From assembly GCA_016927955.1 (NCBI GenBank), contig JAFGLR010000004.1:1-43658 (forward strand): 43,658 nt of DNA, written 5' to 3'. Both the position numbers and the translations under genes were made by a program. This document shows positions 37,927 to 42,049 of the stretch, in pieces (the first letter of the stretch is position 1; every line of letters starts with the position of its first letter). Under the pieces are notes generated by a model. It ran no database searches and was not told where the DNA came from. It saw nothing but the letters and a program-made list of their open reading frames with translations. The stretch is from Dehalococcoidales bacterium (GTDB lineage Bacteria; Chloroflexota; Dehalococcoidia; Dehalococcoidales; JAFGLR01).

Positions 37927-37954
37927 TTGACAACACATTTATTTAATGTATAAT
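37927..37954 (+). promoter_or_regulatory. Consensus sigma70-type promoter of the riboswitch operon
   Basis: TTGACA (37927-37932), 16-bp spacer, TATAAT (37949-37954), both hexamers identical to consensus. Transcription should start near 37961, about 15 bases before the aptamer. Confidence 0.85.
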
Positions 37955-37975
37955 TGAGTATGTTTAAAAACTGAA

Positions 37976-38072
37976 TAAGTCACCGAGAAAGGCAAACCCC
38001 GGGAAATCGGGGGACGCAAAACCGCAGATCTAAATCCTGTATAGGATACGACAGCTGGGTTACCGTTAGACT
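37976..38072 (+). ncRNA. Cyclic-di-GMP-I (GEMM) riboswitch aptamer
   Basis: The aptamer core is nearly the known class I consensus. AGTCACCGAGAAAGG is followed by GGCAAACC (37991-37998), a stem CCGG-GAAA-TCGG with a GNRA-type loop, GGGACGCAAA (38011-38020) and ACCG. CTAAA (38030-38034) faces a TCCT...AGGA hairpin (38035-38046), and the 3' part ends CTGGGTTACCG (38055-38065). The GAAA loop and the CTAAA side match the tetraloop-receptor pair that docks the two arms. It binds cyclic di-GMP and controls the genes from 38143. The sequence match to the Vibrio cholerae Vc2 aptamer is from memory and was not computed. Confidence 0.88.
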
Positions 38073-38089
38073 GAATATTTCTAAACTTT

Positions 38090-38119
38090 AAAGCCTTTCT
38101 CACTGAGAAAGGCTTTTTT
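38090..38119 (+). terminator. Riboswitch expression-platform terminator
   Basis: A perfect 12-bp stem, AAAGCCTTTCTC (38090-38101) with GAGAAAGGCTTT (38105-38116), a three-base loop and T tract 38114-38119, 24 bases before ATG 38143. The 3' arm's GAGAAAGGC also occurs in the aptamer 5' strand (37985-37993), so the 5' arm can pair with either. Confidence 0.88.
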
Positions 38120-38142
38120 AATTTTAATAAAGGGGGTTCGCA

Positions 38143-38259
38143 ATGGGGACTTTACTGGTTATGAAGAAATCCTGCCCGGTATGCCGGCAAAAGACGCGTC
38201 CTGTCAAAATCAATAATATCTTGAAGGTATGCCCCAAATGTCATTGTCGGGTAAACTAA
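38143..38259 (+). CDS. 38-residue zinc-ribbon protein behind the c-di-GMP riboswitch
   Basis: A very short protein with Cys11-Pro-x-Cys14 and Cys30-Pro-x-Cys33-x-Cys35, a compact zinc ribbon similar in shape to the Com-like proteins of phage Mu and to small rubredoxin-like zinc ribbons. AGGGGG (38131-38136) lies six bases before ATG 38143; a second ATG (38161) would leave the zinc site intact. It is the first gene after the riboswitch terminator, 59 bp before the helical protein, so both should answer to cyclic di-GMP. Function is unknown; nucleic acid or protein binding is possible. Confidence 0.65.
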   Translation: MGTLLVMKKSCPVCRQKTRPVKINNILKVCPKCHCRVN

Positions 38260-38318
38260 TGCTACAGCCTTATCCTAAGACAACTAACACACAACATTTG
38301 AAAGAGGTGATGTGAAAT

Positions 38319-38765
38319 ATGGCAATTAAACATAAAGAAATGAAAAAGACGGTAAAAAAACAAGAAGACTATGGCAAAGCCGCCTCAATAAATGCGGAAG
38401 AGCGATATCGGGCCTACCGGCAAATTGTCAAGCAGGCATTTAATGAACGGAAAGCCACCGAGCAGCGGGCAATGGAAGCCTACCGTGTATCCATAGAAAA
38501 AGCCGGTAAAAGATACCATGATATTATCGAGGCAGCCCTGGAAAAATGCAAGCTAATCACGGATAACGCCTGGGAAGCCTCGTTGGAAGCATTAAAAACC
38601 AGCCCCACCGGTGAAACCAAACCTGTTAGGGGAACCTGGCCGAAAATTAAAGAGAACTCACGCAATTTTATCAGAGGGACCCGTGCTCATACAGTTAGAT
38701 ATTTCACTAAGACGAAGGTCTTCTTAAAAAATAAGGTAGGTTCTCTTAAAGTTGCCAATACTTAA
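38319..38765 (+). CDS. Basic helical protein of unknown function in the c-di-GMP operon
   Basis: A 148-residue soluble, Lys-rich protein. Residues about 5-95 are almost all helix or coiled coil, rich in Lys, Glu and Ala (EERYRAYRQIVKQAFNERKA and later IIEAALEKCK). A Gly/Pro/Thr linker (about 98-108) precedes a very basic tail (WPKIKENSRNFIRGTRAH). No membrane segment or signal peptide is seen. GAAAGAGGTGATG is a good ribosome site. I do not recognise the family. Position behind the c-di-GMP riboswitch and zinc-ribbon gene suggests a role in lifestyle control, surface assembly or nucleoid binding. A strong terminator follows. Confidence 0.65.
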   Translation: MAIKHKEMKKTVKKQEDYGKAASINAEERYRAYRQIVKQAFNERKATEQRAMEAYRVSIEKAGKRYHDIIEAALEKCKLITDNAWEASLEALKTSPTGETKPVRGTWPKIKENSRNFIRGTRAHTVRYFTKTKVFLKNKVGSLKVANT

Positions 38766-38806
38766 ACCGAACGAATTGAAGAAACCCGTTGCAACCTAAC
38801 AAGTAC

Positions 38807-38840
38807 ACAGGGGTTGCTAATTATAGCAGCCCCTGTTTGT
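38807..38840. terminator. Terminator between the c-di-GMP operon and carB
   Basis: Stem ACAGGGGTTGCT (38807-38818) with AGCAGCCCCTGT (38825-38836), one G-T wobble, six-base loop, followed by TTGTTAAC. On the minus strand the T tract is poor, so it mainly serves the rightward operon. Confidence 0.7.
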
Positions 38841-38851
38841 TAACGTAAGCC

Positions 38852-41800
38852 TTATTTTATATCGGCATGGTATTGCTGCAGTGATTTTACATTTGATTCA
38901 CCGCTGCAATACGCCACGATTCCTTTAACTGCCGCTGAAGCTGCAGTTAAAGAAGTAATATAAGGTACTTTATATTTTATAGCTGCTTTACGTATATAAG
39001 AATCATCATACTTACTCAGTTTACCGGCCGGTGTATTTATAACTAACTGGATTTCTTTATTTTTTATAGCATCGGTGATATTAGGGCGCCCTTCGTGTTC
39101 TTTAAGGATAGTCTCCGCATCAATGTTATGAGCCGCGAGGTAAGCCTGTGTACCAACGGTAGCCCTTAGTTTAAAACCCATTTTAATAAACTCCTGAGCT
39201 ACTTCAGCCAGGAAAGGCCGGTCACGTTCCGCAACCGTTATCAACACAGTACCACTCGTCGGCATCTGGTTCACCGCCTCCTGAGCTTTCCAATAGGCTA
39301 AGCCGAACGTTGGTGCCATACCAAGCACTTCTCCGGTAGATTTCATTTCGGGACCTAAAATAGGGTCTACTTCCGGAAACATATTAAAGGGGAATACTGC
39401 TTCTTTCACCCCGATATGGGGAATATTCCGCCGTTTCAAATTTAAACTGCTTATCGTCTGTCCCATCATTAACTGTGTTGCCAGATGTGCCATCGGAATA
39501 TTACAGACTTTAGATACCAGCGGCACTGTGCGGGAAGCTCTCGGATTTGCCTCCAGCACATAGACAATGTCTTTACATATAGCGTATTGAATATTCATCA
39601 CGCCGGTAACCTTGAGCTCATATGCAATACGGCGTGTATATTCCTCAATGGTATCAATATGCTTTTGCGGAATAGTTACCGGAGGAATGGCACAGGCTGC
39701 ATCACCGGAATGAACGCCGGCAAATTCGATATGTTCCATAACTGCCGGAATGAATACTTCAGTACCGTCAGACAGAGCATCCGCTTCGGTTTCGATAGCA
39801 TTTTCCAGATAACGGTCAATCAATATCGGACGGTCCGGAGTAACTCCAACAGCAGCAGTAACATATAATTTTAATTCTTCTTCATCGTGGACAATTTCCA
39901 TACCGCGACCGCCGAGTACATAAGAAGGTCTTACGATAAGCGGATACCCGATACGTTTCGCAACTTCCAACGCTTCATCCAGATTAATTGCGGTACCGGA
40001 TTCGGGCATCGGAATGCCGTATTTCTTCATCATCTGACTGAAACGGCCACGGTCGGAGGCAATATCGATAGAGTTTACGGAGGTGCCTAATATTTTTACT
40101 CCTAATTTTTCCAATTCTGCCGCAATATTGAGTGGAGTCTGTCCGCCGAATTGTACGATGACCCCTATAGGCTTTTCCTTCTGATAGATACTCAGGACAT
40201 CTTCTACGGTTAATGGTTCGAAATATAATTTATCCGAGGTATCATAGTCGGTGGAAACCGTCTCCGGATTACAGTTAACCATGATAGTTTCATATCCCAT
40301 ATCTCTCAAAGCAAATGCAGCATGGACACAGCAATAATCAAACTCAATGCCCTGGCCGATACGATTCGGACCGCCGCCAAGCACCATCACTTTAGGTTTA
40401 TTACTGGCCGAAGTCTCATCCGGGGCATTATAAGTTGAATAATAATACTTTGCATCTACCGCACCGCTAACCGGGACGAAATCCCAGGCTTCAGTTATGC
40501 TCAGCTTTATCCTCTGGTTACGGATATTCGATTCTTTAGTACCGAGCAACCTAGCTAGATATTTATCAGCAAAACCATCTTTCTTCGCTTGTATTAGCAA
40601 CTCATCCGGTAATTTCTTTCCCTTATATTTGATGATTTTCTCTTCTAATTCGACCATCTCTTTCATCTGCTCGATGAACCAGGGTTTGATAAAAGTCCGG
40701 CGGTATAATTCTTGAACGCTTGCCCCTTTACGCAGAGCTTCATACATAATGAATTGCCGTTCGCTGGTTGCGAAACTTAGCATTTTCATCAGTTCTTCCA
40801 GCGGTTTCTCGTTGAAATCTTTGGCAAAACCAAGACCAAAACGGCCGTTTTCCAGAGACCGGATGGCTTTCTGAAATGCCTCTTTATAGTTTTTACCGAT
40901 ACTCATCACTTCGCCGACAGCACGCATTTGAGTACCGAGTCTGTCTTCAGCATCGTGGAATTTCTCAAACGCCCAGCGGGAAAACTTTATCACGACATAA
41001 TCACCGGATGGGGTATATTTTTCCAAAGTACCGTCCCGCCAGTAAGGTAATTCATCAAGGGTCATACCGGCTGCCAGTTTAGCTGATACTAAAGCGATGG
41101 GAAAACCGGTAGCTTTTGAAGCCAGAGCGGAAGACCGGGATGTACGCGGGTTAATTTCAATAATTACGACACGCCCGGTTTTGGGGTCATGGGCAAACTG
41201 CAAATTGGTACCACCTATAATGCCTATTTTTTCCACTACTTTATAAGAAAAATCTTGCAGACGTTTTTGCAGTGATTCACTTATAGTGAGCATCGGAGCA
41301 GAACAAAAAGAATCACCGGTGTGGACCCCCATCGCGTCTATATTTTCAATAAAACAGACTGTTATAATCTGGCTCTTGGAGTCGCGTATAATTTCCAGCT
41401 CTAATTCTTCCCAGCCTTCGACCGATTCCTCGATTAAGACCTGCCCTACCATACTGGCAGCGATACCGCGACTGGCAACTACCCGCAGTTCTTCGACATT
41501 ATAAACCAGACCGCCACCCGTACCGCCCAGTGTAAAGGCCGGACGGACAATCACCGGATAACCGATTTTGGCAGCCAGAGCTTCCGCGTCTTCTATACTG
41601 TAAGCAATCTCGCTGCGGGGCACTTCGATGCCTAATTCATCCATCGTCTCTTTAAAAGCAAGACGATCTTCTCCGCGGCGGATTGCCTCCGGGTCCACCC
41701 CGATTACTTTAACATTATATTTATCGAGAACTCCGGAACGGGCTAAAGCTGAGCTTAAATTAAGACCCGTCTGACCGCCCAAATTGGGTAATATAGCATC

Positions 41801-42049
41801 AGGACGTTCTTTCTCGATTATTTTTACCATAGTTTCCATGTTGAGCGGTTCAATATAGGTAACATCAGCCATGCCGGGATCGGTCATAATAGTAGCCGGA
41901 TTAGAATTAACCAATACAATCCGGTAACCAAGTGATTTCAACGCTTTACATGCCTGGGTACCGGAATAGTCGAATTCACAAGCCTGCCCGATAATAATCG
42001 GCCCGGACCCTATAATCATCACTTTTTTTATATCATTGCGTAACGGCAT
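38852..42049 (-). CDS. carB: Carbamoyl-phosphate synthase large subunit
   Basis: Makes carbamoyl phosphate from bicarbonate, ammonia (from CarA) and two ATP for pyrimidine and arginine synthesis. Two homologous ATP-grasp halves are visible: the first opens KVMIIGSGPIIIGQACEFDYSGTQACKAL and contains VIVRPAFTLGGTGGG; the second begins near residue 555 with VMVLGGGPNRIGQGIEFDYC. The allosteric C-terminal domain (from about 935) follows. The 1065-residue length is normal. GGGAGATT before the ATG is the ribosome site. carA is not upstream: 720 bp without a carA gene precede it, so the glutaminase subunit is encoded elsewhere. Confidence 0.97.
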   Translation of the reverse strand: MPLRNDIKKVMIIGSGPIIIGQACEFDYSGTQACKALKSLGYRIVLVNSNPATIMTDPGMADVTYIEPLNMETMVKIIEKERPDAILPNLGGQTGLNLSSALARSGVLDKYNVKVIGVDPEAIRRGEDRLAFKETMDELGIEVPRSEIAYSIEDAEALAAKIGYPVIVRPAFTLGGTGGGLVYNVEELRVVASRGIAASMVGQVLIEESVEGWEELELEIIRDSKSQIITVCFIENIDAMGVHTGDSFCSAPMLTISESLQKRLQDFSYKVVEKIGIIGGTNLQFAHDPKTGRVVIIEINPRTSRSSALASKATGFPIALVSAKLAAGMTLDELPYWRDGTLEKYTPSGDYVVIKFSRWAFEKFHDAEDRLGTQMRAVGEVMSIGKNYKEAFQKAIRSLENGRFGLGFAKDFNEKPLEELMKMLSFATSERQFIMYEALRKGASVQELYRRTFIKPWFIEQMKEMVELEEKIIKYKGKKLPDELLIQAKKDGFADKYLARLLGTKESNIRNQRIKLSITEAWDFVPVSGAVDAKYYYSTYNAPDETSASNKPKVMVLGGGPNRIGQGIEFDYCCVHAAFALRDMGYETIMVNCNPETVSTDYDTSDKLYFEPLTVEDVLSIYQKEKPIGVIVQFGGQTPLNIAAELEKLGVKILGTSVNSIDIASDRGRFSQMMKKYGIPMPESGTAINLDEALEVAKRIGYPLIVRPSYVLGGRGMEIVHDEEELKLYVTAAVGVTPDRPILIDRYLENAIETEADALSDGTEVFIPAVMEHIEFAGVHSGDAACAIPPVTIPQKHIDTIEEYTRRIAYELKVTGVMNIQYAICKDIVYVLEANPRASRTVPLVSKVCNIPMAHLATQLMMGQTISSLNLKRRNIPHIGVKEAVFPFNMFPEVDPILGPEMKSTGEVLGMAPTFGLAYWKAQEAVNQMPTSGTVLITVAERDRPFLAEVAQEFIKMGFKLRATVGTQAYLAAHNIDAETILKEHEGRPNITDAIKNKEIQLVINTPAGKLSKYDDSYIRKAAIKYKVPYITSLTAASAAVKGIVAYCSGESNVKSLQQYHADIK

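Follow-up and report, generated by a model that had tools for sequence, protein, structure and literature searches.

Within the window, by which we mean the whole stretch of 43,658 nucleotides that was analyzed, a promoter, a riboswitch, and two small genes lie in the same orientation and appear to form a single transcription unit, with the following features:

37927–37954, plus strand, putative sigma-70-type promoter, TTGACA-16-TATAAT
37981–38067, plus strand, c-di-GMP-I (GEMM-I) riboswitch aptamer, RF01051
37985–37993, plus strand, putative switching strand P, GAGAAAGGC, the aptamer 5′ strand, with the terminator 5′ arm as its alternative partner
38090–38119, plus strand, intrinsic terminator, with stem 38090–38101/38105–38116, 3-nt loop ACT, and U tract 38114–38119
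38130–38136, plus strand, ribosome-binding site of ORF1, AAGGGGG
38143–38259, plus strand, ORF1, 38 aa, zinc-ribbon-like peptide starting with the ATG at 38143
38303–38309, plus strand, ribosome-binding site of ORF2, AGAGGTG
38319–38765, plus strand, ORF2, 148 aa, basic, predicted all-helical protein starting with the ATG at 38319
38807–38836, plus strand, hairpin ending the unit, a probable terminator (−26.3 kcal/mol for 38796–38850)

The sequence-only reading had described the leader of this unit as a fully consensus promoter, a near-consensus GEMM aptamer, and a perfect terminator, and all three descriptions held up. The promoter hexamers, TTGACA starting at 37927 and TATAAT ending at 37954, match the consensus at 12 of 12 positions, although the spacer is 16 nt rather than the ideal 17. 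That reading had also proposed a covariance-model search with RF01051; the aptamer aligned to the complete model, positions 1–87, with a score of 82.9 bits (E 5.4e-15) against a gathering threshold of 35, and the Rfam search over the window detected no second family. The leader folded 4.4 standard deviations better than dinucleotide shuffles, and the terminator has an uninterrupted 12-bp stem followed by six U. The proposal of a c-di-GMP-I riboswitch preceding a pair of small genes in one orientation, neither with a known family, was well founded, but it gave no direction of switching.

The direction can be predicted from sequence shared by the aptamer and the terminator. Strand GAGAAAGGC (37985–37993) is the exact complement of the terminator 5′ arm GCCTTTCTC (38093–38101), giving nine contiguous Watson-Crick pairs, and part of the terminator 3′ arm is an exact copy of the same aptamer strand. 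The conserved GGC of the ligand core lies within GAGAAAGGC, so that an RNA with ligand in its aptamer could not form the antiterminator at the same time, and from this exclusion it follows that bound c-di-GMP should give termination. We compared the competing folds using energies that leave out tertiary contacts and the ligand. For the transcript to 38104, the antiterminator was the minimum-energy fold at −39.0 kcal/mol, versus −27.3 for a holo-like aptamer with the strand free; with the terminator 3′ arm transcribed, aptamer plus terminator gave −43.3 kcal/mol versus −41.4 for the competing fold. These values indicate that the outcome would depend on the ligand holding the aptamer first.

We propose that the leader is transcribed from the consensus promoter and that the aptamer would be the first element to fold. 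With c-di-GMP bound, GAGAAAGGC would be kept in the binding core, the two terminator arms would pair with each other, and transcription would stop upstream of ORF1. At low c-di-GMP, the free GAGAAAGGC would instead capture the terminator 5′ arm to form a 9-bp antiterminator, and RNA polymerase would continue into ORF1 and ORF2. Taking sequence and energies together, we consider it likely that this c-di-GMP-I riboswitch is an OFF switch acting by premature termination on the two-gene operon. The opposite behavior, in which c-di-GMP would block the terminator and turn the genes on, has precedents, in that GEMM-I relatives are known in both directions and pilM, which responds to cGAMP, is an ON switch (PMC9262584); however, the terminator 5′ arm can form 9 bp with the 5′ strand of the aptamer but no more than 5 with its 3′ strand, which argues that ligand would free the terminator arm rather than occupy it, and we regard an ON switch as very unlikely.

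The position that determines ligand selectivity is a G, as in c-di-GMP aptamers; it is window position 37991, the first G of the conserved GGC, and corresponds to G20 of Vc2 and G11 of Cd1 when the numbering is transferred by hand from PMC9262584. Binding of c-di-GMP by the aptamer is predicted. Aptamers for cGAMP (GEMM-Ib) match the same Rfam family and were originally annotated as c-di-GMP switches (PMC9262584), and the possibility that the window switch senses cGAMP instead must therefore be weighed. The genome of the window, G000, contains three GGDEF domains, all with RYGGEEF and a canonical GHxxGD, so that c-di-GMP is likely made in this organism. Hypr enzymes, which make cGAMP, deviate at GHxxGD, as PMC6456294 also indicates in part. 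With a selectivity position of the c-di-GMP type and a canonical motif in every one of the three domains, sensing of cGAMP seems extremely unlikely, and we retain c-di-GMP as the predicted ligand.

One further GEMM-I element occurs in G000 (C154:15422–15514), and its 5′ strand GAGAAAGGC and terminator arm GCCTTTCTC are identical to those of the window switch. The operon behind it comprises several prepilin-like genes together with genes for a PilC-like protein and for a T2SSE-type ATPase that carries MBG repeats and MshEN. G001, which is the nearest relative and was the one other member of the family available for comparison, has two GEMM-I elements with the same GAGAAAGGC/GCCTTTCTC platform, both upstream of prepilin-like genes. 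As the pilus operon of G000 has the same switch design, ORF1 and ORF2 are probably co-regulated with the type IV pilus and expressed, like it, when c-di-GMP is low. In the ATPase of this operon, a single 1155-aa protein (L011:11879–15346, G000:C154) combines six MBG_2 domains, MshEN, and a T2SSE/PilB-type ATPase. MBG_2 domains are associated with secreted proteins. MshEN domains are known to bind c-di-GMP (PMC5013675); the presence of one in the ATPase, together with a GEMM-I element before the operon, raises the possibility that c-di-GMP may control the G000 pilus at both the RNA and the protein level.

GEMM-I elements are common in the class, occurring in 83 of 393 Dehalococcoidia genomes, and rare in the order (4 of 156 genomes). 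We examined 94 loci, 39 of which have a terminator; at 8 of these 39, the aptamer 5′ strand and the terminator 5′ arm pair contiguously over at least 8 bp. When arms were permuted among loci, the mean was 3.8 and 8 was reached in 10 of 2000 permutations, a blunt control given that nearly every aptamer contains the AAAGGC core and that relatedness links the loci to each other. The first downstream genes at 89 loci, for which start codons and genes were picked by script and some are wrong, encode kinases, response regulators, sigma factors, TadE and prepilin-like proteins, subtilases, and GGDEF proteins. Among the 93 other GEMM loci, in downstream stretches of up to 3 kb and some far shorter, there was no ORF2-like protein (E<0.1) and no frame of less than 75 aa with two CxxC; no relative retained this pairing of switch and genes. 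Two further arrangements were noted in this survey. One contig (G290:C198) carries four GEMM-I elements (L035, L092, L065, and L112) in a span of about 7 kb, two of them on the same strand about 370 bases apart, and these are possibly tandem or repeated switches. At six loci (L049, L059, L062, L067, L070, and L090), a common terminator arm of another type (CTCTTCGGGC or CTCTCCGGGCA) lies just 3′ of the aptamer; this points to a second expression platform that is conserved among Dehalococcoidia GEMM loci.

The two genes had been characterized from their sequence as a 38-residue zinc ribbon and a 148-residue basic helical protein, and the lengths, the shared orientation, the excess of basic residues in ORF2 (34 K/R versus 17 D/E), and its predicted all-helical fold agree with that description. 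ORF1 contains two CxxC knuckles (CPVC-x15-CPKC), as expected of a zinc ribbon, and is predicted to bind metal. Searches of ORF1 against Pfam, NCBIfam, PHROG, and PADLOC gave no match that was above the cut-off or convincing. The frame is too short for codon usage to be informative, and its translation is thus only predicted. Matches to ORF1 at E<1 in 53 genomes of the order proved to be generic CxxC fragments; most lay within longer frames, and we did not treat them as homologues. ORF1 is most likely a small accessory zinc protein.

By codon usage ORF2 is a real gene: it scored 0.187 per codon, against 0.08–0.24 for 14 window genes, and its five other frames scored below 0. AlphaFold2, run on the single sequence, predicted one long, hendecad-like helix spanning residues 3–93 and a second helix at 107–141 (pLDDT 70.5); a Foldseek comparison of this single-sequence, moderate-confidence model with the PDB gave no match. 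Sequence searches against Pfam, NCBIfam, PHROGs, PADLOC, and PDB sequences yielded sub-threshold matches of coiled-coil type or none, and tblastn with ORF2 alone against GTDB r220 contigs, viral contigs, and plasmids found no homologue. The most likely role of ORF2 is that of a coiled-coil scaffold in the cytoplasm.

The search of the 156 genomes of the order gave no close homologue of ORF2; partial matches of about 30–36% identity were found in three genomes, and the same three were recovered with a profile, A1. All three matches belong to a coiled-coil family that A1 detects in 68 of the 156 genomes; as A1 had been built with ORF2 included, its match to ORF2 is circular. With a profile lacking ORF2, residues 6–92 scored 33.4 bits, and the best of 4001 decoys, one of those that retain the 11-residue periodicity, scored 27.6. 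ORF2 and the family have a similar 11-residue periodicity. The eight top-scoring decoys all preserve the periodicity of ORF2, so that distant homology is possible, yet periodicity alone could explain the score. ORF2 thus possibly has distant homology to this family, and we have not filed it as a member. The family itself has no Pfam entry and consists of hendecad-type coiled coils of about 150–200 aa in many genomes of the order (L123–L147; for example L017:4394–6113 and L019:2400–4089). A CetZ-like tubulin gene lies within the fetched flank at 20 of 24 family loci (in the single one scanned, the tubulin matched PF00091 and CetZ_C), and two genomes, G052 and G020, also encode a long repetitive coiled-coil protein next to the family gene. 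A brief literature search found no description of a coiled-coil partner of CetZ-like proteins; CetZ-like proteins themselves are already known in Dehalococcoidia (PMC9871819). ORF2 differs from the CetZ-neighbor family in having a basic C-terminal tail of its own, and there was no CetZ_C match in G000, the assembly of which is 92% complete. It is a speculation, and one that we consider quite unlikely, that ORF2 belongs to the family as a divergent member lacking CetZ, and that c-di-GMP would thereby directly switch a scaffold linked to the cytoskeleton or envelope along with the type IV pilus. We know of no riboswitch with an output of this kind.

The unit ends at the hairpin at 38807–38836, which sits between ORF2 and the convergent carB gene. 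G000 has two carB genes, one in the window (38852–42049) and one at L177 (G000:C4), with 74% identity over the C-terminal third, and several relatives carry solely a more distant carB type (about 45%). The bin is 6% contaminated and has two carB genes, and we therefore considered whether the contig is a contaminant. The leucyl-tRNA synthetase encoded here, however, is the sole full copy in the bin, and it is nearest to that of G001 (75%), a genome of the same family, so that a native origin of the contig is most likely.

The switch and the ORF1-ORF2 cassette were absent near carB at six loci in relatives and at the second carB of G000. This lack of synteny at the carB loci inspected, together with the lack of close homologues of either gene, would be expected if a functional riboswitch had lost its original target, such as a pilin gene, and now stood before ORF1 and ORF2 only incidentally, the two genes having no c-di-GMP-related role. 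The promoter, the aptamer core, the terminator, and both ribosome-binding sites are nevertheless intact, and the codon usage of ORF2 is normal. We consider such a relic unlikely, and prefer the reading in which the switch controls the two genes as an operon.

The suggestion that the locus was the best candidate for a new system in the window was overstated. Class I switches of Clostridioides difficile precede the small hypothetical proteins CD1424, CD1981.2, CD2309, and CD3368.2 (PMC11477304), three hypothetical-protein loci in that organism are repressed by c-di-GMP (PMC6200980), and the other GEMM-I element of G000 precedes an ordinary pilus operon. The window switch belongs to a known riboswitch class, within which it is ordinary, and is not a new system; the only unusual part is that its outputs have no close relatives. 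The second G000 element and those of G001, in contrast, precede type IV pilus or pilin-like genes. In a group that is poorly studied and mostly uncultured, the locus would extend c-di-GMP control to a second output besides the pilus, and it presents a clear expression-platform design, recurring in related genomes, in which the aptamer 5′ strand would serve as antiterminator.

The small-protein switches of C. difficile resemble the present one in having a class I aptamer upstream of small proteins; they belong to a different phylum. The closest mechanistic comparison is with Cd1, in the leader of the C. difficile flagellar operon, which shares with the window switch the aptamer class, a terminator-based platform, and mutual exclusion of ligand pocket and antiterminator; the OFF direction is proven in Cd1 and predicted here. 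In Cd1 it is the 3′ strand of the aptamer that pairs with the terminator to make the antiterminator (A+T; PMC9262584), whereas here the 5′ strand would pair directly with the terminator arm (P+T). Class I switches of C. difficile behaved as OFF switches in vivo, although transcript levels at one of them seemed to depart from this (PMC6200980), and the direction predicted for the window switch is thus the usual one for class I in that organism.
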